From the IMG/VR virus record IMGVR_UViG_3300008267_000095, positions 1 to 44,898 of that record: a stretch of DNA of 44,898 bases; one strand, 5' to 3'. This stretch comes from a virus. Below, piece after piece: positions 133-39,317 of this stretch (position 1 is its first letter; every line of letters starts with the position of its first letter). A model generated the notes under the pieces. That model was not told the origin of the DNA. It did no database searches and saw only the letters and a program-made list of their open reading frames with translations. Both the position numbers and the translations under genes were made by a program.

Positions 133-654
133 ATGACTACAGTTGCGGAAAACCTTGGACACTTGATTGTCGACAGCCTGAATGCCTATCTGCAAGGCGA
201 GAAAAAGCAAGGCAACGGCTACGGTAAACTGATTCAATTTGCTGCAGAGTGCATCAATGGTATCGAAGATACCAAGAAGGCAGATGTTCTTAAGAACACG
301 TTGCAAGCTGCAGAAGGTGAATACAAAATCGGCATGAAAGTGGAGCGTATGCCAGCGGCTTACCGTTCAGCTAAGAGTGTCATTGTGACAGCCGTAAGCA
401 TGAGCATATGCCTTACTGATTCGGATGGCAAGTATAAGGGCAAGACTGAATTGGAAAAAGAAATCAAAGAGGGCAAGCCGGGCAAGCCTGAATTCGAAAA
501 GTTTAAAGCCAGCATGAATACAGCTACGCTGATTTTCGGTAAGCTGGATGCACTGGATGATGTACGTAATGCCAAGGAATTGGTGCGACAGCTTGCTGAT
601 CTTGTCATTAAGACAGAAGCGAGCATGATGGCTGAAGTTAAACTCGCCGCTTGA
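133..654 (+). CDS. First early protein, unknown function (173 aa)
   Basis: First gene after the strong promoter and therefore probably made immediately after infection. The start is placed at ATG 133, because the upstream in-frame ATG at 73 overlaps the -10 box; CGGAG at 121-125 is a suitable ribosome binding site. The protein looks soluble and mostly helical, with a Lys/Glu/Gly-rich middle (about residues 105-125) and no signal peptide or membrane segment. I recognise no family. Position suggests a host-takeover or regulatory role, but that is inference only. It carries one exact copy of the dispersed palindrome (286-297), read as Val-Leu-Lys-Asn, and another copy follows its stop codon. Confidence 0.8.
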   Translation: MTTVAENLGHLIVDSLNAYLQGEKKQGNGYGKLIQFAAECINGIEDTKKADVLKNTLQAAEGEYKIGMKVERMPAAYRSAKSVIVTAVSMSICLTDSDGKYKGKTELEKEIKEGKPGKPEFEKFKASMNTATLIFGKLDALDDVRNAKELVRQLADLVIKTEASMMAEVKLAA

Positions 655-655
655 T

Positions 656-667
656 GTTCTTAAGAGC
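656..667. repeat. Intergenic copy of the dispersed palindrome
   Basis: GTTCTTAAGAGC begins right after the stop codon of the first gene and is one of the very few copies outside coding sequence. It sits 2 bp before the hairpin at 670-695. Because it is free of coding constraint, it is the cleanest place to test whether the motif binds a protein. Confidence 0.8.
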
Positions 668-669
668 AC

Positions 670-695
670 CGGGAGGGACAATCGTGTCTCTCCCG
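670..695 (+). other. Intercistronic hairpin after first gene
   Basis: The arms CGGGAGGGACA (670-680) and TGTCTCTCCCG (685-695) pair over 11 bp with one G-T wobble, closing a four-base ATCG loop. No T-run follows, so a simple intrinsic terminator is unlikely. More plausible roles are a 3' stabiliser of the abundant first mRNA, an RNase III processing site or partial attenuation. The next gene starts 21 bp downstream. Confidence 0.65.
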
Positions 696-715
696 AATAT
701 GTAAGTGGAGGTAGC

Positions 716-919
716 ATGAACATTGTCATTCAGATACGTAATGTATACGGTAATAACCTTGCCTATCCTGTATGCAAAAGAGCTTGCCTTTTTGCTAGGC
801 TTACTGGGCATAAAACACTCTCACGTTCTACGTTGTATGACATTGAGGAGTTGGGCTACAGTGTAAAAATACAAATACTGGGAGTGTCTGAACTTGCCAA
901 TTGGAATGGGGAGATTTAA
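716..919 (+). CDS. Small conserved phage protein (67 aa)
   Basis: Starts at ATG 716 behind GTGGAGGTAGC, a strong ribosome binding site. The layout QIRNVYGN, then a Cys-containing LFA-type segment, a Thr-Leu-rich segment and a final 'ELGYSVKI' resembles a short hypothetical protein I recall from many tailed phages. No function is known to me. It has no membrane segment and no full metal-binding motif. The stop is followed immediately by the next gene. Confidence 0.75.
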   Translation: MNIVIQIRNVYGNNLAYPVCKRACLFARLTGHKTLSRSTLYDIEELGYSVKIQILGVSELANWNGEI

Positions 920-920
920 C

Positions 921-1082
921 ATGCGTTCAATTGTAGTCTTTTCATGTGCTACTGCTGGCTTCTTGCTCTATCTACTGGCTATTCTACAGACTAATGTAGA
1001 GTCCATGATGATACTTACTATGTTAGCCGTATTCGTGCTGTTCATTGCACTTATGCTACAATTAGATAAGGATACCCGATGA
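921..1082 (+). CDS. Small two-span membrane protein (53 aa)
   Basis: Start chosen at ATG 921 behind GGGGAG; the open frame extends back to a TTG at 894 but that region overlaps the previous gene. The 53-residue product has two hydrophobic helices (about residues 4-21 and 28-47) joined by a short turn and ends in a charged tail, LDKDTR. It is probably an inner-membrane protein made early, such as an anti-host or superinfection factor, but the sequence does not decide. Its stop overlaps the next start as ATGA. Confidence 0.7.
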   Translation: MRSIVVFSCATAGFLLYLLAILQTNVESMMILTMLAVFVLFIALMLQLDKDTR

Positions 1083-1345
1083 TGCGAGTAATTAGCGGAA
1101 TATACCACCGGGATGATGTTCGCTCTAAATATACCAAAGGTGATAGGGCTAAGATGTACACCTATGTTCCTAAGAACAACAAGCGAGGAAAGGTTAAGCG
1201 TATCAATCCTGCACAGCATGTATGGGAAATGGAGCATGGCATTGGAAGCTATTGCACCTATGTAGACGGTAGCAAGTTTAGCGATGCTGATGTTCTTAAG
1301 AGCATGGCATCCACCGATCCTCTAATCCTAATCATGGGAGCATAA
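1079..1345 (+). CDS. Hypothetical early protein (88 aa)
   Basis: Begins with ATGATG overlapping the previous stop, so it is probably translationally coupled. The N-terminal half is basic (many Lys and Arg to about residue 45) and the C-terminal half is neutral, which would suit a nucleic-acid-binding protein, but no known fold is recognisable. Two copies of the dispersed palindrome fall inside the gene (1166-1177 and 1292-1303). Confidence 0.7.
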   Translation: MMRVISGIYHRDDVRSKYTKGDRAKMYTYVPKNNKRGKVKRINPAQHVWEMEHGIGSYCTYVDGSKFSDADVLKSMASTDPLILIMGA

Positions 1346-1346
1346 C

Positions 1347-1574
1347 ATGGACTATCGAAGCACCGACCTATCTACGGATACTTTGCAAGAAATCTATTCT
1401 GACTTTTACAAGGACATGTACGGTACTCGCCCTTCACCCATTACATCAAGGGAAGAACTATTGTACGGGCTAGAACTATTGCAATCGGACTTCAATGCTA
1501 TGCTATCCACTGATGCTGGTAGGGCAGAACTATCTGATGCTGGCTGGTACTTTGAGCAGGAGACTATGCAATGA
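1347..1574 (+). CDS. Hypothetical acidic early protein (75 aa)
   Basis: Starts one base after the preceding stop and ends in an ATGA overlap with the following gene. The protein is acidic, rich in Asp, Glu and Tyr, with no membrane segment. I do not recognise it. Tight packing on both sides supports it being a real gene of the early operon. Confidence 0.7.
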   Translation: MDYRSTDLSTDTLQEIYSDFYKDMYGTRPSPITSREELLYGLELLQSDFNAMLSTDAGRAELSDAGWYFEQETMQ

Positions 1575-2062
1575 ATGTATTCTATCTTGACAGTGATCTA
1601 AAGCAATGCGCTATAATGCACACAGATAAGCATGTAGTTAAGATGATACTGGAATATGCCCAGTTACTATCTACTGCACACTATGTATGCGATGGCTCTA
1701 CACCAGAGGGAATGTATAAGCCCACCCATATCAATCACCCGTCTGCAGTGTGGGTACGTAAATCTTCTTATAATTATATATGGTTATGTAATATGCTAAT
1801 TGCATTATGTTCTGAATACACCTATCGCTATTCTAAAACTCATAAAGTAGAGAGGGAGGGGCTATGCTATTTGCTGCTAAAAAATGTTCCTAAGAACATC
1901 GGAAAAGAATTGTGGTCTGAGCCTACACCTGCAATGCCTGATGAATATAAAGTGAAAGGTGATAGCATAACATCCTACCGCAAGTATTATGCCAGTGCTA
2001 AGACACACCTGCATGCATGGAAAAAACGTAGCATCCCATCTTTTATCACGGAGGCAGTATGA
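1571..2062 (+). CDS. Conserved phage protein, pyrimidine-dimer-glycosylase-like family
   Basis: The 163-residue protein has the pattern of a widespread phage family: an N-terminal 'FYLDSDLKQCA', then HTDKHVVKMILEYAQLL (about residues 17-33), a central 'THINHPSAVWVRKS', an Asn-Tyr-x-Trp-Leu segment and a C-terminal YRKYY...WKKR stretch. From memory this family is usually called hypothetical or likened to pyrimidine dimer DNA glycosylases; that functional link is uncertain. The gene overlaps both neighbours by ATGA. A palindrome copy (1886-1897) encodes Val-Pro-Lys-Asn. Confidence 0.75.
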   Translation: MNVFYLDSDLKQCAIMHTDKHVVKMILEYAQLLSTAHYVCDGSTPEGMYKPTHINHPSAVWVRKSSYNYIWLCNMLIALCSEYTYRYSKTHKVEREGLCYLLLKNVPKNIGKELWSEPTPAMPDEYKVKGDSITSYRKYYASAKTHLHAWKKRSIPSFITEAV

Positions 2063-2310
2063 ACTATCGTCAATGGAAACTTGAAAACACTTTCATCACT
2101 GCTAATGATGGCATTGCTATGCAATGGATAGATAAGAAGGGTAATAGGGTTACAGTGTGGGGTAGTGATATATACGGTACACTACAATGCACTACATCCT
2201 ACCCTATGGATACTAAACCATTCATGGATATTTATATAACACAAGTAGGTAATGCGTCTGGTTTAGTTAATAAACTAAACAGAATGCGTGAGGAGTTTAT
2301 GGCAGCTTAA
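2059..2310 (+). CDS. Hypothetical early protein (83 aa)
   Basis: Starts in an ATGA overlap with the preceding gene and is the last gene before the second promoter. The N-terminal half is a compact Trp- and Gly-containing segment that may be a small beta fold. I recognise no family. A 21-base AT-rich gap separates its stop from the -35 box of the next promoter. Confidence 0.7.
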   Translation: MNYRQWKLENTFITANDGIAMQWIDKKGNRVTVWGSDIYGTLQCTTSYPMDTKPFMDIYITQVGNASGLVNKLNRMREEFMAA

Positions 2311-2331
2311 CATTTCTTAACAAAATTCCCC

Positions 2332-2360
2332 TTGACAATTGTTGGGGGGAGTGGTACTAT
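2332..2360 (+). promoter_or_regulatory. Second sigma70 promoter of the early arm
   Basis: TTGACA (2332-2337) and TACTAT (2355-2360) are separated by 17 bp in a 103-base intergenic gap. The leader to the next start is about 47 bases. It would boost transcription of the VWA/MoxR, thyX and replication genes relative to the five small genes upstream. The G-run in the spacer (2344-2350) is unusual. Confidence 0.85.
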
Positions 2361-2413
2361 TGTTGTCGTCGTGGCAGAGTTACTACTATCATCAATTTTG
2401 CATGGAGATTCCA

Positions 2414-2602
2414 ATGCTTACACGTAAAGATTACATTTCATTGTGTGATGCTATGGCTGAAGGGCTAGTCAATAAGAACTTTACAGAGAGTGTATGCTCA
2501 TGGCTATCGAAAGATAATCCGCGATTTGATCGAGCCAAATTCGAAATGTTCCTAAGAACACTGATTGAGAAGAAACAGAAAGCTAAAGAGGTGAGCGTAT
2601 GA
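2414..2602 (+). CDS. Hypothetical protein (62 aa)
   Basis: Start placed at ATG 2414, five bases after GGAGA. A TTG at 2339 that would extend the frame lies inside the promoter, and an in-frame ATG at 2402 is used up by the ribosome site. The small protein is basic at its C-terminus (EKKQKAKE). A palindrome copy at 2548-2559 is read here in the alternative frame, Phe-Leu-Arg. Function unknown. Confidence 0.7.
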   Translation: MLTRKDYISLCDAMAEGLVNKNFTESVCSWLSKDNPRFDRAKFEMFLRTLIEKKQKAKEVSV

Positions 2603-2793
2603 AACCAGTTGTATTCTATGCTGGCATGGTGTCCTATCATCCTACTGGTGATGTAGAGGTGGCACGTGTATTCTGTCCCGATCATTATAAGTTGGGTAAG
2701 AATGTAGATGTACGTACTAGTCGTGTTCTTAAGAAATTCGATGGTGGATTCGAAACTCTAAACACTGTTTACATTCAAACAGAGAGGGAATAA
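2599..2793 (+). CDS. Hypothetical protein (64 aa)
   Basis: Overlaps the preceding stop by ATGA and the following start by TAATG, which supports translation. The short product has a central 'VARVFCPDHYKLGKNV' segment and a Glu-rich end. No family recognised. A near-exact palindrome copy (2725-2736) is present. Confidence 0.65.
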   Translation: MKPVVFYAGMVSYHPTGDVEVARVFCPDHYKLGKNVDVRTSRVLKKFDGGFETLNTVYIQTERE

Positions 2794-4502
2794 TGGCTAT
2801 ATTAGATGATGTATACACTGCGCTAGATGTAAACAAATACATTGCTGCAGTGTGTAAACAGGCTGGAGTGCGTGTAATGTGGGATAATCCTGATGCTACA
2901 CCACGCACTAATGGTAAGGTGATGTATTTGCCTAAAATCAATGCCTATGCATCGCATAAGAATAATGTCAATCTGAAACAGTTTGTAAAGCATGAGACTA
3001 GCCACATTCAGTATTCGGATTTTGCCTTACTGCAAAAGCATAAGCCTACAGGGTTGCTGATGCTGCTGGATAATTTGCTAGAAGATCATCGCATCGACTA
3101 TCTTAATGATTCTGAATATGATGGTGATAGGAAAAACACTGAACAATTTATGTCCTATTATGCTGCTGATTTTGATAAGCATATAAAACCTAATGATGAG
3201 TGGTGCGATGTTATCTCACCTGTTATGGCATGGGATAGTGATGTGCGAGAGGATGTATGGACTATGCCACACAAACTCTTCCATTCCTATATGTCTGAAG
3301 ATGGTAAGCGTGTATATGCAGCACTGCATGCTGGAGATTATGCTGATGTTCTTAGGAGCATTCGTACCATCAAAAATCCTACACTAGGTGGACAGAAGGT
3401 GTATGATTTAGCTGTGCGTATTCTTACGGAAATATTTGGGCAAGATGCTAAAGACTATGAGCAGAAGCCTAGCAAGTCCACTGCAAGTGCAGGTGATGGG
3501 GAAGGTGAGGGCGAGGGAAAGAGTGAACGTAAGAAACTATTAGTTGAAGATATGAAAGGTAAGCAGATACTACCTTACACTATACATGAGGGCGTTACTG
3601 GTGAAGGTATTAATGCATACAATTATAAGACTGGTAAAGGTGCTGCCTATTGTCCTGCTGCTGAAGATATGAAGGAGTGGGATTTTACCACTGGCACTGG
3701 TAAAAATATAGATGTATCATATGGCAAAGGTGAATATATTAGAGGTATACAAAATGCACTTAGTGGTAGTGAATCACTAGCACATCAAGTGCGTACTAAG
3801 TTGCAAATACTTAGCAGAGATAGGTATGAATATGGTAAAAAGAAAGGGGCATTGCATAACAGTGCATTGTATAGGGCTACATTAAAAGATGCCAAAGGAT
3901 TTAATGAGCGTATCTTTAAGCAAAAAATTGTTAACAATACGCTAGATGTAGCGGTGCAAGTGTTGGTAGACGCTAGTGGTAGTATGTCCGGTACTAAATT
4001 CACTAACGCTAGTGCTGCTGCTGTATTGCTGAATGATGTTCTTAGTAACACGTTACGTATCCCTGTAGAAATACTTGCATTTTCAGAGTGTAGTAGTGCT
4101 AATACAATGTTTATAATGAAGTCTTTTGATAAGAGCGTACTTAATGCTACTTTGATTAACGATTTTAGTGCAGTGGGTAGGTATTTATCAGATAATGTGG
4201 ACGGAGAGAGCATTGCATATGGATATGGACGCATTAAACAACGTAAGGAGAAACGTAAACTTATGATTGTTCTATCAGATGGTAGTCCTTGTGGTGGGTA
4301 TAGCAGGGGAGATATTCAGCAATACACTCAAGATGTTATTCGTTCAATAGAATCCTCCACTGTAGAGTTGCTAGGTGTAGGTATTATGTATGATGCAGTG
4401 AAGCACTATTATAAACGGTGGGCTAAGATTGATAGTGCTACAGATATACAAGCTAGTTTGTTGTCTATTATTTCTAACAACATTATAAGAGAGGGTGTAT
4501 AA
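2793..4502 (+). CDS. VWA-domain protein with N-terminal HExxH motif (phage CobT-like)
   Basis: The 569-residue protein combines two recognisable parts. Near the N-terminus is a zinc-protease-type HETSH (residues 67-71) followed by LLEDHRID (about 95-102), an arrangement seen in CobT/VWA-associated metallopeptidase-like domains. A Gly/Glu-rich linker (about 220-245) leads to a C-terminal von Willebrand factor A domain with MIDAS motif DASGSMSG (about 392-399) and a later LSDGSP (about 494). The stop overlaps the start of a MoxR-type ATPase, the partner these proteins normally work with in metal-insertion or remodelling complexes. In phages the pair is often annotated CobT/CobS, but no cobalamin gene is present here, so a remodelling or host-targeting role is more likely. 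Confidence 0.85.
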   Translation: MAILDDVYTALDVNKYIAAVCKQAGVRVMWDNPDATPRTNGKVMYLPKINAYASHKNNVNLKQFVKHETSHIQYSDFALLQKHKPTGLLMLLDNLLEDHRIDYLNDSEYDGDRKNTEQFMSYYAADFDKHIKPNDEWCDVISPVMAWDSDVREDVWTMPHKLFHSYMSEDGKRVYAALHAGDYADVLRSIRTIKNPTLGGQKVYDLAVRILTEIFGQDAKDYEQKPSKSTASAGDGEGEGEGKSERKKLLVEDMKGKQILPYTIHEGVTGEGINAYNYKTGKGAAYCPAAEDMKEWDFTTGTGKNIDVSYGKGEYIRGIQNALSGSESLAHQVRTKLQILSRDRYEYGKKKGALHNSALYRATLKDAKGFNERIFKQKIVNNTLDVAVQVLVDASGSMSGTKFTNASAAAVLLNDVLSNTLRIPVEILAFSECSSANTMFIMKSFDKSVLNATLINDFSAVGRYLSDNVDGESIAYGYGRIKQRKEKRKLMIVLSDGSPCGGYSRGDIQQYTQDVIRSIESSTVELLGVGIMYDAVKHYYKRWAKIDSATDIQASLLSIISNNIIREGV

Positions 4503-5590
4503 TGAGTGCTGCTATTATTGGTAAAACATTTTCGTTGGATGAGTTTGTTGCTAGTGCAATGAATAGCACTGTTGAATCTAAGATGGCTGAGATTGCAGAG
4601 GCAGTGCCTGAGACTGAAGAGCCTACCACTGTTAAGGAGTTGATCCTCAAGAGTGGCGAGGTGTCTTATGCCAAGACTTTCGGTGGTGTTCCTAAGAGCA
4701 TGGAAGATTTTGCTGTCAGCATGTTCACTGATGTTCCTGCTAACATGGTGCATCACATTCCCCGCACTGATGATAAGTATGTAGTGCAGAAAGAGGAGTG
4801 TGCTCGCATTGTTGCTGGCATCATGGACAATGAGAAAATCCTCATCACTGGCCCTACTGGTAGCGGTAAATCTTCGCTGGTCAAATATGTGTGCTCTCTG
4901 TTGGGTGCTCCCTTCATTCGTATCAACATGAGTGCCGATGCAGAATCGTCTGTGTTGTTCGGACAGTTGGTAGTGCGTGAGGGTGCTACTGTGTGGGAGG
5001 ATGGGCCTATCACTGAGGCAGTGCGTCATGGTGGTGTGGTGCTTATTGATGAGTGGGAGTTGATGCCGCCTGAGATTAGCATGGGATTGCAGAATCTGCT
5101 GGAAGATGATGGCTACTTGTTCTTGAAAGAGAAGCCCGGTAGTGCAGAAGATAAGACATTCATTCCGCACAAAAACTTCCGTCTTATCTGTGCAGGTAAC
5201 ACTGTTGGACAAGGCGATGAGACTGGTGGATTTAGCGGTACTATGGTGCAGAACAGTGCTACACTTGATCGCTTCACTACCACTGTGTGCCTTGACTATC
5301 TTAGTAAGATGCATGAGGTGAGCATCATTCGCAATAAGACTGCTGTTAAGAAGCCCATTGCAGAGGGTATGGTTAAACTTGCCTCACTCATTCGTAATGC
5401 ATACAATCAGAGGCAGGTAAACCTAACTATGTCACCACGTACACTTATCTCTTGGGGTAATAAGATTGTTCGTCACAATGGTAATCTGTGGTTTGCATTC
5501 TCTATTGCCTACTATGACAAGTTGCGTGATAGCGATAAGAAAGTTGTTAAAGAATTGTTTGAGAAAGTATTTGCCGAGGAGAAAGCATAA
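4502..5590 (+). CDS. MoxR/CobS-like AAA+ ATPase
   Basis: A 362-residue AAA+ ATPase. Walker A is GPTGSGKS (about residues 118-125), Walker B is VVLIDEWE (about 178-185), and a sensor-like CAGNTV follows near residue 229. The C-terminal part has the helical lid typical of MoxR and CobS proteins. The gene overlaps its VWA partner by TAATG, so the two are made together. MoxR ATPases act with VWA proteins as remodelling chaperones; this pair may modify or disassemble a host complex. A Leu/Glu-rich N-terminal extension of about 80 residues may bind the partner. Assignment to AAA+ is firm, the role is inferred. Confidence 0.9.
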   Translation: MSAAIIGKTFSLDEFVASAMNSTVESKMAEIAEAVPETEEPTTVKELILKSGEVSYAKTFGGVPKSMEDFAVSMFTDVPANMVHHIPRTDDKYVVQKEECARIVAGIMDNEKILITGPTGSGKSSLVKYVCSLLGAPFIRINMSADAESSVLFGQLVVREGATVWEDGPITEAVRHGGVVLIDEWELMPPEISMGLQNLLEDDGYLFLKEKPGSAEDKTFIPHKNFRLICAGNTVGQGDETGGFSGTMVQNSATLDRFTTTVCLDYLSKMHEVSIIRNKTAVKKPIAEGMVKLASLIRNAYNQRQVNLTMSPRTLISWGNKIVRHNGNLWFAFSIAYYDKLRDSDKKVVKELFEKVFAEEKA

Positions 5591-6240
5591 TGGTTGAACT
5601 CATTGCTAAGATGGGTGATGATGTACAGATTGAACACATGGCACGTATCTCCAATCCTGCTGCTAGTGTCACTGCAGGGAGTGGTAAACTGCTAGACTAT
5701 CTGATTAAACATAAGCATTGGTCTCCCTTTGAAATGGCTAATGTTGTTATGCTTATTGAATGTCCACGTGATATTGCTAGGCAAGTGTTGCGGCATCGCA
5801 GCTTCACGTTTCAAGAGTTTAGTCAGAGGTATGCCAATCCACTCAAGTGGTTAGGCATGCATGTTCGTAATGCACGATTGCAAGATGCTAAGAATAGGCA
5901 AGCCTCTCTGCCTCTCACTGTTGCAGATGTGCATATAGATGATGAGTGGGTGAGGCGGCAACGTGACATAATGGCTAGTGTGTCTGAGCATTACACTTGG
6001 GCTGTAGATAATGGTGTGGCTAAAGAGGTAGCACGTGCTATCATTCCTGAAGGCATGGTACATAGTCGTATGTATGTCAATGGCACTGTACGTAGTTGGT
6101 TGCACTATTGCCAATTGCGTATGGGTAATGGCACACAGAAAGAACATGCGATGTTGGCTGCTGAATGTTGGGATGTTCTTAAGAACGCATTCCCTTTAAC
6201 CTGTGCTGCTATGGAGGAACACAATGTTCTGGAATCATAG
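5590..6240 (+). CDS. thyX: Flavin-dependent thymidylate synthase ThyX
   Basis: ThyX makes dTMP from dUMP using reduced flavin and methylenetetrahydrofolate. The diagnostic motif appears at residues 68-81 as RHRSFTFQEFSQRY, matching the RHRxxSx(N/Q)ExSxRY signature with Thr in place of the first Ser. The C-terminal part carries the Arg-rich helix around 'GTVRSWLHYCQLR' expected to bind phosphate. At 216 residues it is a normal length. It overlaps the AAA+ gene by TAATG and, with the NrdA/NrdB genes downstream, supplies DNA precursors. One exact palindrome copy (6175-6186) lies near its end. Confidence 0.95.
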   Translation: MVELIAKMGDDVQIEHMARISNPAASVTAGSGKLLDYLIKHKHWSPFEMANVVMLIECPRDIARQVLRHRSFTFQEFSQRYANPLKWLGMHVRNARLQDAKNRQASLPLTVADVHIDDEWVRRQRDIMASVSEHYTWAVDNGVAKEVARAIIPEGMVHSRMYVNGTVRSWLHYCQLRMGNGTQKEHAMLAAECWDVLKNAFPLTCAAMEEHNVLES

Positions 6241-6457
6241 GTTTGTTAATTGCCCGTCCAAGAATGGTGGTGAAGATTGGTATGAGTTGAAAGAGGTGTA
6301 CTATGACAATCTTGGACTGCCCATTGCATGCACTGAAGATGCTGTAGATGTGTGTGGTGAGAGTATGGAAGAGGTGTATAAACTTGGCTATCGCATTGCT
6401 AAAGCATGGGACAAGCCCATCCTACATGAGAAAGATTTTGGGGGAGTTGAAGAATGA
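6224..6457 (+). CDS. Hypothetical acidic protein (77 aa)
   Basis: Start chosen at ATG 6224 behind GAGGAACACA, overlapping the end of thyX by 17 bases. The product is acidic, Trp- and Tyr-containing and soluble, with a single helix-like stretch around 'SMEEVYKLGYRIAKAW'. I do not recognise a family. Its stop overlaps the next gene's ATG. Confidence 0.65.
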   Translation: MFWNHRFVNCPSKNGGEDWYELKEVYYDNLGLPIACTEDAVDVCGESMEEVYKLGYRIAKAWDKPILHEKDFGGVEE

Positions 6458-6630
6458 TGATGATTGACCCGCCTAGTGGGTGGAAGTATGGCTTTCCTAA
6501 ACCACTACCTGATGGTGTTGAGGATGTATATAACTGGCTTGTTGCTAACGGCTATCCACAAGCAGAGATAGATGCATGTGGTGACTATTTCTACTGTAGA
6601 CATTGGGAGGAAGAAGATGTATCTAAGTAG
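6454..6630 (+). CDS. Small hypothetical protein (58 aa)
   Basis: This frame starts with three ATG codons at 6454 overlapping the preceding stop and ends at TAG 6628-6630. The product contains 'PPSGWKYGFPKPLP' and a Cys/Tyr/His-rich C-terminal stretch. Both junctions overlap neighbours and the third-codon pattern looks coding, so it is probably real. Function unknown. Confidence 0.65.
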   Translation: MMMIDPPSGWKYGFPKPLPDGVEDVYNWLVANGYPQAEIDACGDYFYCRHWEEEDVSK

Positions 6631-7450
6631 AGATGAGATGCAAAATGTTCTTAAGGACATTGATGTGCTTAAAAGTATGGAACAAGTAAATATAAATCAT
6701 GATGAGTGTTCTGCTGGAACAGATACAAAGAAACGATTGTATGTGAAACGAGTTGAAGATGGTAGAAATAATACCTATCTATTCTATTGTCATCACTGTG
6801 GCAATCGTGGTAGTTTGAAATATGATGGGTTACGTAGGATAGAAGAGATTGCAAAAGAGACTACTGCTACCGTTAAAAGTAGTGCAGTAGAATTGCTAAC
6901 TGAACTAAATAAGTATAGGCATGGGGTTTTTACCATAGATTTCTGGTCACTTGACGCAAAATTATGGTGGTATAAATATAATTTAGATAAGGATGATGCA
7001 ATACGTCATTGTGTTCAATATAATGATGTAGATGATAGACTGTGGTTGGAAGTAGCAGATGGTTTGTGGCAAGGTAGAGGGTTTGGAGATGCAGCAAAGA
7101 AAATGAAATACTACACTGTAGGAGATATTACTGCTAGTAAGGTGTTTGTAAAAAATAAACGCTCTACAGTGATGCTAGTTGAAGATGTGGTAAGTGCCTA
7201 TAAATGTGCTAAAGCAGGTATTAATGTGCTACCATTGTTAGGTACTACATTACGTCCACACCACCTATCTCTTGTTAAAGGGTATGATAGAGTGATTATA
7301 TACATGGATAATGACACTGCAGGGCAGAAAGCAGCAGTTAATATATACAAAGAGTTAAGTCCTTATACTAATGATCTTGATGTAATATATGATACTAAAC
7401 AACCTAAAGAACGTCCTCTTGAAGAATTACAACACTATGCAACAATCTAA
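6617..7450 (+). CDS. DNA primase (zinc ribbon plus TOPRIM)
   Basis: Start taken at ATG 6617, seven bases after GGGAGG; the longer frame to 6572 is not needed. The 277-residue protein has a zinc-ribbon-like set of ligands (His28, Cys31, Cys58, Cys61) followed by a TOPRIM domain with VEDVVSA (about 186-192) and the metal-binding YMDNDTAG (about 228-235). This is the primase half of T7 gp4, encoded here as a separate gene from the helicase that follows. It lays down RNA primers on single-stranded template. A palindrome copy (6647-6658) is within the first codons. Confidence 0.88.
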   Translation: MYLSRDEMQNVLKDIDVLKSMEQVNINHDECSAGTDTKKRLYVKRVEDGRNNTYLFYCHHCGNRGSLKYDGLRRIEEIAKETTATVKSSAVELLTELNKYRHGVFTIDFWSLDAKLWWYKYNLDKDDAIRHCVQYNDVDDRLWLEVADGLWQGRGFGDAAKKMKYYTVGDITASKVFVKNKRSTVMLVEDVVSAYKCAKAGINVLPLLGTTLRPHHLSLVKGYDRVIIYMDNDTAGQKAAVNIYKELSPYTNDLDVIYDTKQPKERPLEELQHYATI

Positions 7451-7458
7451 GGAGGTGT

Positions 7459-8700
7459 ATGTACGATATTTCGCTAATGAAGAAGTTGTCCAACAAAGCA
7501 TTGTGGACTAGACTATCTCCATACATTAAAGAGCATGCTGTAAGCAAGGAGACATGGAATATTATGTCCTCTATTAATAACTATTATCGCACCTATCCAA
7601 GTGCTACAGAAATACATTGGAGTGATTTTGCTTTCTTTTTCTTTACGATTAAGAAACTTAAATCAGAAGAGTATGATAACTATCGCACCTACTTCGACAA
7701 TGTAGAGAAGGCTGAAGATAGTGCAGTGTTGGAAGATGTTCTTAAGAACTATGTTGTGAAGGATTATGCTACACAGATAATGAATGTAGCAATGAAGGTT
7801 TGTACCGATGAAGCAGTGTCTATAGATGACATTCAGGAGTTGATGGACAAATACAAGAAAGAGATTGTAACCACTGTAGAAAAGGAGAATGTCTTTGTCC
7901 CTACTGGACTATCTACCACTCTTAGCACTGTTGCTACTGGTGGTTTTAATTGGCGATTGAATGAGATGAACATCAGTGCAGGGCCGTTGCGTACAGGAGA
8001 TTTTGTCATCCTTGCAGCACGGCCTGAGACTGGTAAGACTACATTCATTGCTTCCGAACTATCCTATTTCGCTACACAGTTAAAAGATGATAGGCCGATT
8101 GTATGGGTGAACAACGAAGAGGGTGGCAGCAAGGTGATGAATCGTGTCATCCAATCCTATTTCGGTGTGCCCCTATCCTCTCTCATTGAACATGAGGCAG
8201 AATATGACGAGAGGTATAAGAAAGAGGTGGGTGATAGGATACGAATTATCAATGATGATGCTGGTCTAAACAATGTTAGGAAGTTGACAGCATTGTTTGA
8301 AGAGGTTAATCCATCCATCATTGTATTCGATCAATTGGATAAGGTGCATGGCTTTGAGAAAGAAGCACGTGATGATTTGCGTCTTGGTAAGTTGTACGAA
8401 TGGGCACGTAACTTAGCTAAGAAATATGGGCCTACCATTGCAGTGAGCCAAGCATCAGAAGCAGCAGACTATGTGCATTACATTACACTATCCATGCTGC
8501 GAGGGAGCAAGACAGACAAGGCAGGAGAGGCCGATCTCATTATTACATTGGGTAGAGATAAGGAGGATGAATACAAACGCTATCTACACCTTCCTAAGAA
8601 CAAGTTATGGGGTAGCTCTGCTACACTTGAAGCTCATAGACATGGCAAGTTTGAGGTGTCTATTCAACCTGAAATTGCACGATATAAGGGAGTGTTCTGA
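7459..8700 (+). CDS. Replicative DNA helicase (DnaB/gp4 type)
   Basis: A 413-residue RecA-fold helicase. Walker A reads ARPETGKTT (about residues 185-193), Walker B is IIVFDQLD (about 286-293) and a later RGS...ADLII segment matches the arginine-finger and motif 4 region of DnaB-family hexameric helicases. The N-terminal 150 residues are helical and probably mediate hexamer formation or primase binding. The start follows AAGGAGGTGT, a near-perfect ribosome binding site. It lies between primase and polymerase genes, completing a three-gene replisome block. A palindrome copy lies at 7738-7749. Confidence 0.92.
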   Translation: MYDISLMKKLSNKALWTRLSPYIKEHAVSKETWNIMSSINNYYRTYPSATEIHWSDFAFFFFTIKKLKSEEYDNYRTYFDNVEKAEDSAVLEDVLKNYVVKDYATQIMNVAMKVCTDEAVSIDDIQELMDKYKKEIVTTVEKENVFVPTGLSTTLSTVATGGFNWRLNEMNISAGPLRTGDFVILAARPETGKTTFIASELSYFATQLKDDRPIVWVNNEEGGSKVMNRVIQSYFGVPLSSLIEHEAEYDERYKKEVGDRIRIINDDAGLNNVRKLTALFEEVNPSIIVFDQLDKVHGFEKEARDDLRLGKLYEWARNLAKKYGPTIAVSQASEAADYVHYITLSMLRGSKTDKAGEADLIITLGRDKEDEYKRYLHLPKNKLWGSSATLEAHRHGKFEVSIQPEIARYKGVF

Positions 8701-10706: not shown

Positions 10707-10899
10707 AGAAGATGCTGCAGCTAAATACATTCAAGATGGATATATTTTCAACACTGTAGAAGATGCTGCTAGATATGCAATGGAAGATATGCAAGGCACA
10801 GAGGTTGAAATTTACGAATGTGTCTCCAGATACGAAGTGAGCATGAAAGTTGAAGTTAACAAAGTTGTTCTTAAGAACGAGGAGATGAAAGATGAATAA
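10687..10899 (+). CDS. Small hypothetical protein (70 aa)
   Basis: Starts 20 bases inside the polymerase gene and overlaps the next gene's start by eight bases. Acidic, with a probable helix around 'TVEDAARYAMEDMQ' and a following beta-like 'TEVEIYECVSRYEVSMKVEV'. No family recognised. An exact palindrome copy (10867-10878) encodes Val-Leu-Lys-Asn near the C-terminus. Confidence 0.7.
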   Translation: MFLLVHKEDAAAKYIQDGYIFNTVEDAARYAMEDMQGTEVEIYECVSRYEVSMKVEVNKVVLKNEEMKDE

Positions 10900-11419
10900 A
10901 GTCACTGGTGAAGTTAGCGCAATTGGTAGCAAGCCTGTTAACACTAAGTGGGGTGAGAAAAGCACCCACTCTTTTCAAGTTGATGGTGTGTGGTATAAGA
11001 CTGGCTTTAAGAAGGGTAAGTTTAGTAAGGGTGACACTATTACATTTACCTATGTAGAAGGCCCATATGGTAATGATGTAGATGTTGCATCCATTAGCAC
11101 TGGTGGTGGTGCTACTACAGCATCCGCACCGGCAGCAAGTGCTGCTAAACCTGCATACACTGGAGGAGGTAAAGGCGTGTTTCCTATTCCTGCACTAGAT
11201 GGTCAACGAGCGATTGTTCGTCAAAATGCTCTTACCAATGCACGTGAGTTGTGGATTGCACATGGAAGCAAAGGGGATAATATTAAAGATGAGGCATATG
11301 ATATTATTGCTATTGCACGTGTATTTGAAGCCTATGCTTGTGGTGATTTGGATGCTATGAAGGCAGCAGAGATGAAGGCTGCTAAATCCATGCCTACAAT
11401 TGAAGAGGTAACTGAGTGA
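10892..11419 (+). CDS. Probable single-stranded DNA-binding protein (OB fold)
   Basis: A 175-residue protein in which the first 70 residues alternate beta-like segments (VSAIGSKPVNTKWGEKSTHS, VWYKTGF, DTITFTYVEG) in an OB-fold pattern. An Ala/Gly/Ser-rich linker (about 71-95) follows, then a helical part starting RQNALTNA, and an acidic C-terminal tail (IEEVTE), as in many phage single-stranded DNA-binding proteins. Its place between polymerase and nuclease genes fits a replication or recombination role. Assignment rests on organisation more than on a unique motif. Confidence 0.7.
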   Translation: MNKVTGEVSAIGSKPVNTKWGEKSTHSFQVDGVWYKTGFKKGKFSKGDTITFTYVEGPYGNDVDVASISTGGGATTASAPAASAAKPAYTGGGKGVFPIPALDGQRAIVRQNALTNARELWIAHGSKGDNIKDEAYDIIAIARVFEAYACGDLDAMKAAEMKAAKSMPTIEEVTE

Positions 11420-12995: not shown

Positions 12996-13155
12996 GCGCA
13001 AAGCTATTCCGCAACACCGTCTATTGCGTAGCAAAGAACAAAACTTTGAGCATAAGGTGGTGAAGATGAAAAAGAATAGTCAAAAGCAAAAACTTGCTGA
13101 TAAAGATATCTCTCTATACATTCAAGGGAGGTATGATGACTCTGACCGACTTTAA
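12976..13155 (+). CDS. Small basic protein, TTG start (59 aa)
   Basis: Proposed start is TTG 12976, six bases after AAAGGAG, overlapping the exonuclease gene by 20 bases. The product is rich in Lys, Arg, Gln and His, suggesting nucleic-acid binding or an unstructured linker. It ends 20 bases inside the sigma-like gene. The start codon is uncommon and no homologue is recognised, so confidence is moderate. Confidence 0.5.
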   Translation: MSTEHVKRKAIPQHRLLRSKEQNFEHKVVKMKKNSQKQKLADKDISLYIQGRYDDSDRL

Positions 13156-14042: not shown

Positions 14043-14086
14043 CCCTTGCATTATATGACGCTCTTAAGAACAGGTTTACACAATGA
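13928..14086 (+). CDS. Small protein nested over HNH gene end (52 aa)
   Basis: This frame starts at ATG 13928 inside the HNH gene, in a different frame, runs past its stop and ends at TGA 14084-14086 in an ATGA overlap with the next gene. The product has a folded-looking pattern, 'DAYYWFSITSFENTVKEH' followed by a helix 'AEEVVKDIGYEVALALYDAL', and ends with the Leu-Lys-Asn of a palindrome copy (14060-14071). Coupling to the next start argues that it is real. The low-complexity HNH tail over the same bases may be the passive frame. Function unknown. Confidence 0.65.
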   Translation: MQRPVQEDAYYWFSITSFENTVKEHKAEEVVKDIGYEVALALYDALKNRFTQ

Positions 14087-14301: not shown

Positions 14302-14313
14302 GAGATTTACATA

Positions 14314-16258: not shown

Positions 16259-16262
16259 TGGA

Positions 16263-17234: not shown

Positions 17235-17258
17235 AATGGGGCTGATCGGCCCTAATAT

Positions 17259-30456: not shown

Positions 30457-31150
30457 AATTCACCTTTGAATTGTAATAGGTTTCACTAGCTTTATTACGC
30501 CATGCTTCATTTTGAAAAGTGTTTCGACCACGTTGAGCTTTCCTCTCCTCTTTAGCATTTGGCACTTGACGTAGATTTATAGAGGAAGTGCTTTTAATTT
30601 CAGCAAGCAAAGTAGGAAACATCTTTTCAGGGAGTCGAGGAACAAAATCATCCTCATGTGTCCAAGAAGGAACAATCACTCCATAACACAAGTTATTAGA
30701 AGTTTGCAAAGTGTTTTCTACACTTTCATTATACCCATCAAATACAAAATAGGTGTCATCAAAAGTGGTGTAATACAGTGGATCACGATTAAGAGCAAAC
30801 CCATCTGCATCCACTACATCTGTTTCTTCCACTCGCAAATCAAGCATGTCTTGAAAATCTTTAGGATCAAGCCATAAAACATCTTTCTTATTATATTTAA
30901 GCCACTCTATTTTACTTACATCATCCTCATCCAATTCCATATAAGTAGGACGAGTAGTATCTCCCAACCCTTGCAAAGAAAAAGTGTCTTTAAGAAAAGG
31001 CCACTCTCTTTGCCCAATTAATTCGTAATAGCACTCTTTAACAAACATTGCTACTTGTTTACTTTCTACAGTGTCATCAATACTATTAACATCATCACTG
31101 TCAATGCTATTAAGAACACTCTGCACCATATCTAGAATAGACATTTTCAT
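30443..31150 (-). CDS. Tail tubular protein A (T7 gp11-like adaptor)
   Basis: A 235-residue protein beginning with a helix 'ILDMVQSVLNSI', then 'ESKQVAMFVKECYYELIGQREWPFLKDTF', which is the typical start of gp11-type adaptor proteins, where a conserved Trp-Pro pair follows the second helix. It forms the ring between portal and nozzle. Located immediately upstream of the gp12-like gene in transcription order. Confidence 0.8.
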   Translation of the reverse strand: MKMSILDMVQSVLNSIDSDDVNSIDDTVESKQVAMFVKECYYELIGQREWPFLKDTFSLQGLGDTTRPTYMELDEDDVSKIEWLKYNKKDVLWLDPKDFQDMLDLRVEETDVVDADGFALNRDPLYYTTFDDTYFVFDGYNESVENTLQTSNNLCYGVIVPSWTHEDDFVPRLPEKMFPTLLAEIKSTSSINLRQVPNAKEERKAQRGRNTFQNEAWRNKASETYYNSKVNYGRR

Positions 31151-33342: not shown

Positions 33343-34116
33343 TTATTTTTTGTAATAGAGGTTAGGATTTGTCCTAACCGCAGTGTCCATCTTCAATTGG
33401 AAATCTGTACTGTAATAGGATTTAGGGTTTGTACGGCGAATATTATCAAAATACTCTTTAGTGCCAAATTGTTGCACCCTACCACTAGGGTTGGCAGAAG
33501 AGTAGTTGACAGTGGTATTCACTGTTCCACCACTTCCCACTCCAGTGTTCTTAGGAACATCTCCAACGAACAATGAAATAAATTTATCAGGATCGACAGA
33601 AGCTAGTTCAGTGTACACTTTCTGCAGTTCAGGAGTGCTTGCAAACTCTGCAAACTTCTCTCCAGCTTTTTCGCCAAACACTTCTTTCATTTTGGCATCT
33701 GCTTTCAGCATATTACTGCGCCGTTGTTTCTGTGTCTCCAATCCGGTAACAGTAGCTTCAACCAACTTACTCAGTTCAGATACATCAACTCCCTTTGTGG
33801 GAGCAGGAGAGGGGTCGCTTTCCTGTGTAGTCTGCTGTTGATTCAACCGTTGCAAAACATCATCGACTGTTTTAGCTGCAGTGGCCTTCTCTTTCAAATC
33901 TCGGTTTTCAGCCTTGAGTTGTTCGATGAAGCCATCGGCATTGATATAACCCTTTGCCAAGTCATCATATGTTTTGTACTTCTTACCCTCACCTACAAGG
34001 GCGCTGACAATATCAGAGGTCTGAGTTGCAGGAGGTGTAGTTCCTGTCTGCCCGTCAGGGGTGGCAGATGTTTGGGGCTGGTCGCCCTGAAAAATTGTAG
34101 CTTGGTCAGCAGTCAT
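33343..34116 (-). CDS. Capsid assembly scaffolding protein
   Basis: A 257-residue acidic, Gln/Thr/Pro-rich protein with a disordered N-terminal 40 residues, a coiled-coil stretch 'FIEQLKAENRDLKEKATAAK' (about 63-82) and a basic C-terminal end, the normal layout of scaffolding proteins that bind capsid subunits by the C-terminus. It sits between portal and capsid genes and is the first gene after the bipartite promoter at 34136-34166, with GGAG 7-10 bases before its ATG. Confidence 0.85.
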   Translation of the reverse strand: MTADQATIFQGDQPQTSATPDGQTGTTPPATQTSDIVSALVGEGKKYKTYDDLAKGYINADGFIEQLKAENRDLKEKATAAKTVDDVLQRLNQQQTTQESDPSPAPTKGVDVSELSKLVEATVTGLETQKQRRSNMLKADAKMKEVFGEKAGEKFAEFASTPELQKVYTELASVDPDKFISLFVGDVPKNTGVGSGGTVNTTVNYSSANPSGRVQQFGTKEYFDNIRRTNPKSYYSTDFQLKMDTAVRTNPNLYYKK

Positions 34117-34425: not shown

Positions 34426-36189
34426 TTACATGTTCTCCATATTGGGAGGGCCATCTACAGGTACTTGTTGCTCAACCTGCATATCCTCTTGTACTTGGTT
34501 GATAAGACGTTGAGTGTCTGCTTGTTCAAACACCATAGCATTATCTTTAACAATCTTGTAACTACTCCAACCAAGAGCATCTTCAAGTGCTTTAGCAACA
34601 GCTTTACCACTAAAGTGTGCAGCTACAGTGGGCATAGCCGCCACTGCTTGCATAGTGGTGTTCAATTCTTGAATGAATTTAGCTTGTTCAGCAAAATGAC
34701 GAGCACCCATCGGAAACAACACTCCTTTTCCTTTAAGATCGTCTTTAGTCACTTCAATGTAGATTTCTGCACCAAACTCAGGGTCAGTAGTGCGAATGCG
34801 TTCCAGTGCCCCAAAGTTACGAACACTTTCTTCCAGCATACTATTCAACAGGGGTTCAAGAATGTTCTTCTCAAACCAATACACCTTGCTTTGGAAAATA
34901 CGACCAGCAGCATTCTCAAGTTGTTGCACTTCGTATTTGGTTTTCTCTCCCGGTGTGCGAATACCCATAGCTTGTTTAGGAGCACCTGCCAACTCTTCCA
35001 TGCGATTCATCAGTTCATTAATCTGCATGTCAGCTTGCAAGGCAGTCGCATCAGGACGAAGGAATTCAACATCTCCCTCATCTCCACAGAAGATGTTAAT
35101 GCCGGGGGCAAACTCAAACTCTTCCACCGTAATGCCTTTAATCTTGGCTACAGGGTAGGCAATCTGGTCAAACACATCGGCCTTAAGGTTTTCAAGATGG
35201 TCGATTCGATATTGCATTCCCATCAACTGATCCAACGGGCCTTGTGCCCACAAGTTATCAGGGCGCAAACGCCAGCCACAATGGAAGAAGGGTTTATTGC
35301 CAAGCCAACTCTTATTAGGCCTGTTCCTAAGAACCCACTTCCTATCAATGATGGTAATGACAACATCTCGATGGTAGGTGTTAGATTCACGATCCCAAAC
35401 ATCACCCCAATACTCAATGATTTCTACAAGATCGGATTTGATGTATTCTTCCAAACTACCAAAACCATCTACAATGAGGCCATCGCGTTTCATCTCTTCA
35501 GGATTTTCACGATAGGAAGATCGCATTTCAAGAGCTTTATTAATCACTGCCTTATTATATCCAAGAGTGGGTTTTGTTTCCACATCATTCATCAAATCCC
35601 CCACACTTTTAAGCATACGACGGATAAATGGAGTGGTTTCAAAAGATGTAGACAACGGATTTATAACTACATCTAGAGGGTTTACACGGAAGGCTTTAGG
35701 GCCAGTGTAAAGATTAATAACATCACCAGTGTCTTGATCTTTCTTTGTTTCATTGACAAACTCATGGCCTACAAATACATTACCATAATCAATGTAGTCA
35801 TAAATAAGATTGCTTACCAACAACTGAAAGTTAGAAGCCTTCAACTTATTTTTCATGTAGTTGATGATTGCTGTGCGCTTCTTAGCAATGTCATCTGTCT
35901 TTTCTGTACTCTCCCAAATAAACCAATCCTCAGATGGAAATAGTGCAGCCATGTAGTTAGCATGCAAATTATCACGTATCTGAGTGAGCTTTGGAGTGAC
36001 AGTGGAGTTTTTCCAAGGGAGTTTCTTATTCTCGGTTTTACGAGTGTCTGTCGCAAACAAATACTCTCGCAACTCCTTCTTCTCATCTTTCCAATGTACA
36101 CGTGCAGTGTCCCATCGTACCCAATGGTCTGTAATGTAACCAGCTAAATATTCTGGTTCGTATTCACTCATTTGAATATTATCTTGCAT
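34426..36189 (-). CDS. Portal (head-tail connector) protein
   Basis: A 587-residue protein. The N-terminal part has 'EYEPEYLAGYITDHWVRWDTAR' and 'LPWKNSTVTPKLTQIRDNLHAN', and a long helical domain follows, ending with a barrel region rich in helix (about 480-560). Length and layout fit a T7-superfamily portal. It lies next to the large terminase gene, and twelve copies would form the DNA entry ring. A palindrome copy (35323-35334) is present. Confidence 0.87.
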   Translation of the reverse strand: MQDNIQMSEYEPEYLAGYITDHWVRWDTARVHWKDEKKELREYLFATDTRKTENKKLPWKNSTVTPKLTQIRDNLHANYMAALFPSEDWFIWESTEKTDDIAKKRTAIINYMKNKLKASNFQLLVSNLIYDYIDYGNVFVGHEFVNETKKDQDTGDVINLYTGPKAFRVNPLDVVINPLSTSFETTPFIRRMLKSVGDLMNDVETKPTLGYNKAVINKALEMRSSYRENPEEMKRDGLIVDGFGSLEEYIKSDLVEIIEYWGDVWDRESNTYHRDVVITIIDRKWVLRNRPNKSWLGNKPFFHCGWRLRPDNLWAQGPLDQLMGMQYRIDHLENLKADVFDQIAYPVAKIKGITVEEFEFAPGINIFCGDEGDVEFLRPDATALQADMQINELMNRMEELAGAPKQAMGIRTPGEKTKYEVQQLENAAGRIFQSKVYWFEKNILEPLLNSMLEESVRNFGALERIRTTDPEFGAEIYIEVTKDDLKGKGVLFPMGARHFAEQAKFIQELNTTMQAVAAMPTVAAHFSGKAVAKALEDALGWSSYKIVKDNAMVFEQADTQRLINQVQEDMQVEQQVPVDGPPNMENM

Positions 36190-37739: not shown

Positions 37740-38008
37740 TAAGCCATCCTTGCACTTTTTGTACGTTTAAAACTTCTATTGGCACTCTTACTCTGCACTC
37801 GCAAATTAGACCGCTTATTACCACCACCTTTAGCAATGGGTGTTTTATGGTCTACATCTTTACCATCATGCTTTTCTACTCTACCCTCTTTCATCAATTC
37901 ACGACGAGCAGCATTACGCATAGCACGTGATTTTTTTTCTTTCCTACTAGATTGAGAGGTTTCATATTCCTCTTTATAATCTCGTTTATAATTTTTAGAT
38001 GAAGGCAT
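37739..38008 (-). CDS. Small HNH nuclease next to terminase
   Basis: An 89-residue, very basic protein with the core 'DGKDVDHKTPIAKGGGNKRS' followed by NLRVQSKSANRS, a short HNH motif with the catalytic Asp-His. HNH proteins beside terminase genes are needed for DNA packaging in several phages, for example HK97. It lies between the probable small terminase and TerL genes and overlaps both, which supports a packaging role. Confidence 0.8.
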   Translation of the reverse strand: MPSSKNYKRDYKEEYETSQSSRKEKKSRAMRNAARRELMKEGRVEKHDGKDVDHKTPIAKGGGNKRSNLRVQSKSANRSFKRTKSARMA

Positions 38009-38493
38009 TACTTTACTCCGTTAATCACTGATAGGCCAAGACGCTCCATATCCTCGCTTATTCGCTCAGAAATTTTACTTTGCTTTTCTTCGGAAATTTC
38101 CTTTGCTTTTTTGCCTTTTCCGTAGAATTGCCCTTCACTAATATATTTAGCTGCTGCAGTGCCGTTAGGAGTTGTAGATAGTTTTTCAAGTTTTCTAAAT
38201 GCTGCACTCTTAAGTTTGATAGACACCTCTTCAGCCCACTCATCCATTATTGGTTTAATCTTTGGATGGTTGCGGATGAGGGAGTAGTGTTCCCAATTCC
38301 CAATAAGGCACATGGCTGTTTCATATTCTGTGGGGTCTGCAATGTCAACGTATATCTGTTTCCAATCTTTACGTAAACTCCATAGGGGAGTGTAGTCCCC
38401 TCTAGAGAATTCGGAAAACAGAGATAGCACAACTCTTCGTCCATAGGAGTCAACAACCTTATCCTTTATTGTGGAATAGTCAAACTGCTTCAC
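38008..38493 (-). CDS. Probable terminase small subunit (GTG start)
   Basis: Starts at GTG 38493 in a GTGA overlap with the upstream small gene. The 161-residue protein is helical: an N-terminal half with '[16 protein letters not shown]' that could hold a helix-turn-helix, and a C-terminal half with basic residues '[20 protein letters not shown]'. Position one gene before TerL is the usual place for the small terminase that recognises phage DNA. Assignment is from context and composition, not from a unique motif. Confidence 0.6.
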
Positions 38494-38636
38494 TTCTTTT
38501 TCTTCTTTTTAGTTTTACCTGCAGCACTAAGAGCAATGGCTACAGCTTGTTTATTGGACATTTGCGGATGCTTTTTCATTTCCATCCGAATGTTTGCACT
38601 GATTGTCTTTTGACTACTCCCCTTCTTTAGTGGCAT
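38490..38636 (-). CDS. Small basic conserved protein (48 aa)
   Basis: The frame begins at ATG 38636, inside the end of the upstream gene, and ends at TGA overlapping the GTG of the small terminase. The product starts [20 protein letters not shown] and continues [14 protein letters not shown] with a C-terminal Lys run. This is a widespread short phage family that I recall being listed as DUF6496, function unknown. The tight coupling on both sides and the family pattern make it a firm gene despite its size. Confidence 0.85.
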
Positions 38637-38883
38637 TGTCTACCCTTTCTGTTATCTCTTCTACTTCACGTATCATCCCTCGCGGAATCTGAAACCTACG
38701 ACCAACAGTACCATCTTCAATAACACTGCTAGTGAGGATGATTCCTTCAGGCCCGTCATACAACACCACCCCAATAGTAAACACCATACAAGGTGTGTAT
38801 TCAAAAGTGTCATTGTCGTGTACCACCCAAACATCTGCATCTACATCACAAGCATCTTCCCACTTAACAATGACTAGTTTCAT
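38614..38883 (-). CDS. Hypothetical protein (89 aa)
   Basis: An acidic protein with beta-like segments '[20 protein letters not shown]', '[20 protein letters not shown]' and a C-terminal acidic helix. It could be a small single-domain beta barrel. It begins at the stop of the M15 endolysin gene and overlaps the next gene by 23 bases. No named family recognised. Confidence 0.7.
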
Positions 38884-39317
38884 TAGTAGTTCCTTGTTCC
38901 AAGTTTGTCGATAATTAGTGCCTTGTTCCTAGGAACATCTGTTTCAGTGTTAGGCACACTGATATGCACCCAAGAATCAAACTCTAAAATGATTTGATCG
39001 TATGGAAGTTTGGCAAGGATACATGTGCCGATAACTTGTTTAGGAGTCATTCCCGGCACACGAATGTCTGCTGCACAACCAATACGATGTTGACTAGTAT
39101 CTTTACTGCCCACTGCATCATTCACTTGTTTATTACGAAAACCAGAATTTATCATTACTGGCTTACCACCAAGTGCTTCTTTAACTTTCTCAAGTAGGCC
39201 AGCCAATCGACGTAGATTTGCCACCTCCTTATCTGATGGAGTGTTATTCCACCCATTACGAACACCAACATCTGAGTGTGTCAACTCTTCTAAAGTGAAG
39301 TGTGGAGAGAGATTCAT
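38883..39317 (-). CDS. M15-family peptidase endolysin
   Basis: A 144-residue peptidase of the M15A/VanY-like group, which cuts peptide cross-links in peptidoglycan. Zinc ligands are visible: His77 in SQHRIG, Asp84 in AADI and His118 in WVHIS, with SGFRNKQVN (58-66) before them. No signal peptide is present, so release would depend on a holin. It lies among two holin-like genes, so it is the lysis enzyme. Confidence 0.9.
   Translation of the reverse strand: MNLSPHFTLEELTHSDVGVRNGWNNTPSDKEVANLRRLAGLLEKVKEALGGKPVMINSGFRNKQVNDAVGSKDTSQHRIGCAADIRVPGMTPKQVIGTCILAKLPYDQIILEFDSWVHISVPNTETDVPRNKALIIDKLGTRNY

Follow-up and report, generated by a model that had tools for sequence, protein, structure and literature searches.

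The virus genome recorded in IMG/VR as IMGVR_UViG_3300008267_000095, a stretch of 44,898 bases analysed here over its whole length (the window), raises the question of why a single 12-bp palindrome, GTTCTTAAGAAC, recurs so many times within it, mostly inside genes, and which factor might read it. Our answer, to which we give a probability of roughly 0.6, is that the palindromes are the binding-site network of a phage-encoded protein, here termed the RSAKSV protein (73–654, + strand; 193 aa, assigned to its family by profile search), which would act together with its operon, a roadblock or silencer role being our leading guess. A literature search did not find GTTCTTAAGAAC in any paper.

The recurrence of the palindrome is far beyond chance. 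The initial annotation had counted 37 copies within two mismatches, six of them exact; we found 38 matches, six exact, between 286 and 38936, compared with a mean of 2.5 and a maximum of 6 in 100 dinucleotide-preserving shuffles of the window. A symmetric position matrix retained 37 of the 38, where 0.5 would be expected by chance, and dropped the match at 24183, which is chance-like. The codon-preserving shuffle that had been proposed as a check did not yield similar counts: when codons were shuffled synonymously, keeping the proteins and the codon usage (300 shuffles), coding sites within two mismatches numbered 34 against 6.5 ± 2.3 (maximum 15 in 300), those within one mismatch 22 against 1.1, and exact sites 5 against 0.13. 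Shuffling codon order led to an expectation of 2.6 coding sites within two mismatches, and the difference between 6.5 and 2.6 suggests that amino-acid choice, too, leans towards accommodating the word. Thirty-four of the 38 matches lie in annotated coding frames and four more in the 2,872 bases of non-coding DNA. Coding sites fall mostly in one reading frame, with a second frame and non-coding DNA also used; the remaining frame is barred because the word would there contain TAA. Flanking bases extend the 12-bp dyad to 14 bp, TGTTCTTAAGAACA, and the symmetric double variants noticed earlier, in which paired changes preserve the dyad, are indeed present as GCTCTTAAGAGC (16914) and GTTCCTAGGAAC (38925).

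The evidence that connects the word with the RSAKSV protein is their covariation. IMG/VR loci were fetched by the RSAKSV protein alone (55 non-redundant loci of at least 9 kb) and all 4,096 12-bp palindromes were scanned on each contig for the top-enriched word. One class of words, GTTnnTAnnAAC (16 words, e.g. GTTACTAGTAAC), was top in 47 of the 55 loci, among the top five in 51 and among the top twenty in all 55. It was top in three of 66 control loci, and one of these three, L064, is itself a motif-bearing relative that is truncated; these controls were drawn in part from a scan of IMG/VR for the exact 14-mer, which returned mostly chance single matches, and their being fetched partly by the exact word biases the comparison in favour of the control. 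In a presence profile the RSAKSV family was the only one found in 18/18 motif-bearing contigs and 0/7 controls. Isolates of the same or neighbouring groups that lack RSAKSV are not enriched (best class rank 16–861), and in ICP2, JSF27, T5S1 and CRP-810 CobS and CobT are present while both RSAKSV and the word are absent. The enrichment in relatives that the initial annotation had suggested looking for is found in related phages. Several other candidate binders were rejected. The DNA polymerase, primase, helicase, CobST pair and an OB-like protein (10892–11419) occur in all 18 contigs and also in motif-free controls; the sigma-factor-like open reading frame (ORF) at 13094–13576, a Pfam Sigma70_r2 protein, occurs in G001–G003 and some sister phages and is missing from several motif-bearing ones; and the phrog_624 ‘DNA binding protein’ at 1571–2062 gave tblastn matches in G002 and G003 only.

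The word itself changes between lineages. GTTCTTAAGAAC is carried by relatives whose terminase is at least 77% identical to that of the window, plus one at 69%, and most others at 70–75% are without it. In the scan of all 4,096 palindromes, several of the latter turned out to have a word of their own: sister phages G008, G010, G011 and G013 carry RTTACTAGTAAY at 22–33 sites, and the more distant G016 and G017 carry TGTTMYTARKAACA. Throughout, the outer GTT...TA...AAC frame is constant and the central core switches from CTTAAG to ACTAGT or CCTAGG, a pattern that suggests a coevolving binding protein rather than a host modification core; the earlier idea of a modification target with the core CTTAAG does not fit the sister phages, which have ACTAGT or CCTAGG within the same frame. 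The base after GTT goes with the subtype of the RSAKSV protein, named here for the residues that precede RSAKSV (half-site totals were summed over table rows, and some rows come from one and the same contig): it is C in phages with an AY, AW or KW protein (about 110 half-sites with C, 10 with A), A in those with an NSL protein (137 A to 2 C) and mixed in those with a PW protein. L304 and L307 have a terminase and portal of the G016 type, yet a SAW protein and the C word, and other G016-type phages have the PW protein and the mixed word. The link between word and protein holds across two unrelated virion modules, and across contigs of 37–56% GC. A maximum-likelihood tree requires 6 changes to account for the three motif states, where shuffles require 28; the number of switches is imprecise given long-branch warnings. 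As regards the initial suggestion that a phage silencer or nucleoid-like protein binds the word, the covariation of the word with a phage-encoded family across two virion modules supports the involvement of such a protein; the role itself we infer. As a separate observation, the ACTAGT-type contigs, including G013 (L223–L224), show strong enrichment of TATATATA runs.

Judged from this covariation, the RSAKSV protein very probably binds the palindromes physically. Profile searches define a family with the conserved RSAKSV and a later GK(T/S), located at the early end of those motif-bearing contigs that reach that end; it has two subfamilies, and hhalign, comparing an alignment of each, shows that they are related (probability 89, E 2e-6). 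In the window the conserved part probably starts at the Met of ...SIHMTT, codon 21. The ORF at 73–654 has no relative in Pfam, PHROGs or the PDB profiles, and searches of 50,697 phage records found no member of the family. Neither did two pattern-based scans of 84,980 prokaryote genomes, a type of scan sensitive chiefly to close relatives; a host-encoded member is accordingly unlikely. An AlphaFold2 monomer built from 35 homologues (predicted local distance difference test score 80, predicted template modelling score 0.62) is nearly all helical; in it RSAKSV opens helix 80–94, followed by two short bridges and then the GK(T/S) helix, an arrangement that might represent a helix-turn-helix carrying a small wing. 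A viral fold library matched the model to uncharacterized phage proteins only. Two diverged RSAKSV paralogues occur in G003 (L205–L207; 39621–40091 and 41876–42454, both − strand), in L267 (869–1369 and 2449–2886) and in L279 (8179–8676 and 9863–10291); L267 and L279 (54–56% GC) have very high counts of GTTCTTAAGAAC-type words, 24 and 21, respectively.

All 37 sites described here were identified by word match and matrix. The exact word lies at 286–297, inside the RSAKSV gene, and at 6175–6186, 7738–7749 (same codon in G003), 10867–10878 (intergenic in the first gene list), 13665–13676 and 19436–19447. GTTCTTAAGAGC occurs directly 3′ of the RSAKSV stop codon (656–667) and at 1292–1303, 11929–11940, 13243–13254, 18252–18263, 22315–22326 and 26911–26922, and GTTCCTAAGAAC at 1166–1177, 1886–1897, 2548–2559, 26525–26536 and 35323–35334. 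The other sites are GTTCTTAAGAAA (2725–2736, intergenic in the first gene list), GTTCTTAGGAGC (3348–3359), GTTCTTAGTAAC (4038–4049), GTTCCTAAGAGC (4688–4699 and 22816–22827), GTTCTTAAGGAC (6647–6658), CTTCCTAAGAAC (8590–8601), GCTCTTAAGAAC (8967–8978, and 14060–14071, which is intergenic), GTCCTTAAGAAC (9660–9671), GTTCTTAAGACC (16048–16059), GTTCTTAGGGAC (19974–19985), TTTCTTAAGAGC (24118–24129), ATTCTTAAGAAC (25282–25293), GTTCTTAGGAAA (30110–30121), GCTATTAAGAAC (31106–31117, not kept in G002) and GTTCTTAGGAAC (33547–33558), together with the symmetric double changes GCTCTTAAGAGC (16914–16925) and GTTCCTAGGAAC (38925–38936). The sites at 8590, 9660, 11929, 13243 and 18252 are additionally backed by the comparison of site positions with relatives.

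The sites inside genes are kept by selection. Of the 33 sites that could be mapped in the near relative G002, 31 lie at the identical codon; in G003, most of whose early proteins are about 40–64% identical to those of the window, 11 of 22 sites are kept in position, mostly in early genes, and in sister phages with another word 0–1 are. Copies lie on both arms of the genome, as had been noted, though they thin out from left to right, with 10 copies per 5 kb at the window's left end and 0–2 at its right. Eight genomes were tested for spacing: they have 0.9–2.0 sites per kb in the early arm and 0.3–0.7 elsewhere, and in seven of them early-arm spacing is more even than random (coefficient of variation 0.47–0.59 against about 0.9, p<0.03; six at p<0.01). 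Sites on the early arm follow one another at roughly even distances of about 0.5–0.8 kb, and the structural arm is thinner. G002 also has a perfect 18-bp copy, AATGTTCTTAAGAACATT, upstream of the RSAKSV gene in the control region between the arms. In the window the corresponding site is interrupted by the end of the contig, which stops after the left half-site AATGTTCT (44891–44898); these last bases align with AATGTTCTTAAGAACATT of G002. Self-regulation of the RSAKSV gene would fit this arrangement. Position 1 of the window aligns with the G002 region nearer the RSAKSV gene.

Two further genes accompany the RSAKSV gene. In the window these encode a CobT-like metallopeptidase (HExxH)–VWA protein (2793–4502, + strand; PF11775 CobT_C, PF00092 VWA) and a CobS/MoxR-like AAA+ ATPase (4502–5590, + strand; PF07728 AAA_5, phrog_249), and by their AAA+ and VWA domains they qualify as a CobST pair. 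Every one of the 81 RSAKSV genes that are followed by at least 6 kb of sequence has both partners, the CobT-like VWA gene and the CobS/MoxR-like AAA+ gene, no more than 6 kb away. In about 58 cases the VWA gene directly abuts the RSAKSV gene, and all 79 VWA proteins of RSAKSV loci have both HExxH and a motif of the metal-ion-dependent adhesion site (MIDAS) type. CobN was not recognized among the window ORFs scanned. Viral cobST pairs have been read as cobalamin synthesis genes (PMC8651126), and their function has also been called uncertain (PMC11288001). The pair described here belongs with them by domain and differs from the published pairs in having a third conserved gene, a genome-wide site network and HExxH in all VWA proteins, a combination that suggests DNA-linked remodelling rather than B12 synthesis. 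Pairs of a MoxR AAA+ protein and a vWA-metallopeptidase in group 2.2 jumbo phages, proposed to function in virion assembly (PMC7824862), resemble it in combining an AAA+ protein with a metallopeptidase–vWA fusion, but no DNA word or RSAKSV protein has been described there. As far as could be found, a fixed link between a CobS/CobT-like pair and a dispersed DNA word has not been described before.

Our current working hypothesis is that a dimer of the RSAKSV protein would occupy each 14-bp dyad, TGTT(nn)TA(nn)AACA, the window-type protein being predicted to prefer TGTTCTTAAGAACA and the NSL type TGTTACTAGTAACA. Bound RSAKSV protein may coat or bridge the phage genome and may form an orientation-independent roadblock to, or silencer of, early transcription, either within one infection or against superinfecting relatives, and the AAA+/peptidase–VWA pair would load, remodel or clear it. 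The density of the early arm and the even, mostly intragenic placement of sites point to a network that covers transcribed DNA, for roadblock, silencing or compaction, more than to control at promoters. A silencing or organizing role is plausible at somewhat less than even odds, and a remodelling role for the partners is more tentative still. Taken as a whole, the reading of a previously undescribed three-gene system (a new DNA-binding family, an even palindrome network and a dedicated AAA+/metallopeptidase–VWA machine, long annotated as ‘cobaltochelatase’, that would act on the bound genome, with at least two coevolved specificity shifts) has in our judgement an even chance of being correct. 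Most likely the palindromes are landing sites for the RSAKSV protein, and the whole is a novel type of system by which aquatic phages control their genomes throughout. The predicted DNA-binding family, whose recognition code can be read from genomes (AY/AW to CTT, NSL to ACT), offers a clean test case for protein–DNA coevolution at several dozen sites simultaneously and a testable alternative to the annotation of cobS and cobT as ‘auxiliary cobalamin metabolism’ in this environmental phage group. Should the network silence or organize phage DNA, phages without recognized lysogeny genes would have a layer of control that spans the genome, with a reach like that of mycobacteriophage stoperators and built from unrelated parts.

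Known systems offer partial parallels. The sites of ParB and Noc (parS and Noc-binding sites) are perfect palindromes of about 14–16 bp with TGTT...AACA arms and many copies, features that the present sites share; they differ in that the RSAKSV protein has no similarity to ParB or KorB (no Pfam, PDB-profile or fold match to a ParB-type DNA-binding domain) and that the sites are spread over the genome, not clustered at the origin. ImmR and ImmA are repressor–metallopeptidase pairs in which a DNA-binding protein is encoded beside an HExxH protein; they are only a lead, with no sequence relation shown, and the AAA+ ATPase and dispersed sites of the present system differ. By analogy, the nearest known system in mode of action would be the mycobacteriophage stoperators, a parallel already drawn in the initial annotation. 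Those of cluster A phages (L5/TipsytheTRex) comprise more than twenty dispersed sites of about 13 bp, bound by a phage-encoded immunity repressor, a monomeric helix-turn-helix protein of temperate phages, and are asymmetric, oriented with transcription and located in promoters and short intergenic gaps (PMC9283540). The parallel stands for the many dispersed copies in one phage genome (37 by matrix here, 0.5 expected) and fails for asymmetry, orientation and intergenic location: the present sites form a symmetric 14-bp dyad, 34 of 38 are in coding frames, the protein has no recognized relation to the stoperator repressors (no helix-turn-helix repressor was recognized, and RSAKSV has no recognized sequence relative), no lysogeny genes are recognized and the AAA+ and peptidase–VWA partners are fixed.

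Several observations weigh against our proposal. Classical promoter repression does not explain the sites, as they are mostly intragenic; an immunity role is unsupported since no lysogeny genes were recognized; and even spacing was not seen in G008. Eight of the 55 protein-fetched loci do not have the GTTnnTAnnAAC class at rank 1, most of the 18 motif-bearing contigs profiled were chosen through the RSAKSV protein, and the protein–motif link is partly shared ancestry, the motif states changing few times on the tree. Fold searches of the PDB gave no match, and Foldseek found no known DNA-binding fold there for the RSAKSV model, so that DNA binding by the RSAKSV face is something we infer. An unlikely though appreciable alternative is that the protein is a nucleoid-like organizer, bridging even sites for compaction, segregation or packaging with no control of transcription. 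Even spacing, a mostly intragenic location, palindromes without orientation and a link with the replication/early module that holds in both virion types would all suit such an organizer, but sites become much sparser between the early genes (10 per 5 kb) and the structural genes (0–2), which is unexpected for even compaction. It is improbable that the words are a self/non-self mark, either licensing the phage genome when bound by RSAKSV while the AAA+/metallopeptidase–VWA pair acts on unmarked DNA or proteins, or serving RSAKSV to recruit the pair against host or rival factors. The fixed neighbourhood of AAA+ and peptidase–VWA genes speaks for such a mark, as do the MoxR–vWA pairs reported in conflict systems (PMC7159879); however, there is no nuclease in the RSAKSV operon, PADLOC gave weak AAA-domain matches only, and the early-to-late gradient would be left unexplained.

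A word driven by the host (a host protein site, an uptake signal or a HIP1-like methyltransferase target, kept by phages of one host group) is very improbable. A host factor is conceivable, but the word follows a phage gene for which the pattern-based scans found no relative in the 84,980 prokaryote genomes, its central bases differ between the subtypes of the phage protein, it is present across 37–56% GC and two virion types, and related isolates lack it; host-signal mimicry, raised in the initial annotation, is unlikely on the first two of these grounds. That codon or amino-acid bias (V-L-K-N words), or repeats of common ancestry, gave rise to the word as a by-product has a negligible probability. 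Its concentration in one frame, where another has a stop, and the lean of protein sequences towards permitting it (6.5 against 2.6) are what such bias would produce, yet the excess persists under the codon-preserving shuffle (34 against 6.5), sites also use a second frame and non-coding DNA, and sister phages carry a different word.

The genome has a podophage-type two-arm layout, with early and replication genes on the + strand (73–18419) and virion genes on the − strand (18409–44485). Its products include a DnaB-type helicase, DNA polymerase, primase, class I ribonucleotide reductase and ThyX-type thymidylate synthase, as well as terminase, portal and major head protein. The terminase is 57% identical to that of Methylophilales phage MEP401 and 53–55% to those of Lentibacter, Roseobacter and Celeribacter Cobavirinae, and on these identities the window is a Zobellviridae-like podophage; it shares with that family the terminase, portal and capsid genes and the two-arm layout, gene families and layout being common to both. 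A megablast search of the window against isolate phages gave no match. The early arm ends with a tRNA-Thr (tgt) gene (17259–17332) that lies between a ribonucleotide reductase gene and a MazG-like gene and might help host identification. Among the isolates, MEP401 (L238) and ICBM1 (L240) each contain the gapped palindrome CTGCA-n11-TGCAG 13 times, against 1.2 and 2.2 expected, which may reflect a codon-repeat effect, and ICP2 (L242) contains GC-rich gapped palindromes, GGGCCnnnnGGCCC, 10 times against 0 expected within one mismatch, a likely cause being GC-rich stem–loops, possibly terminators.

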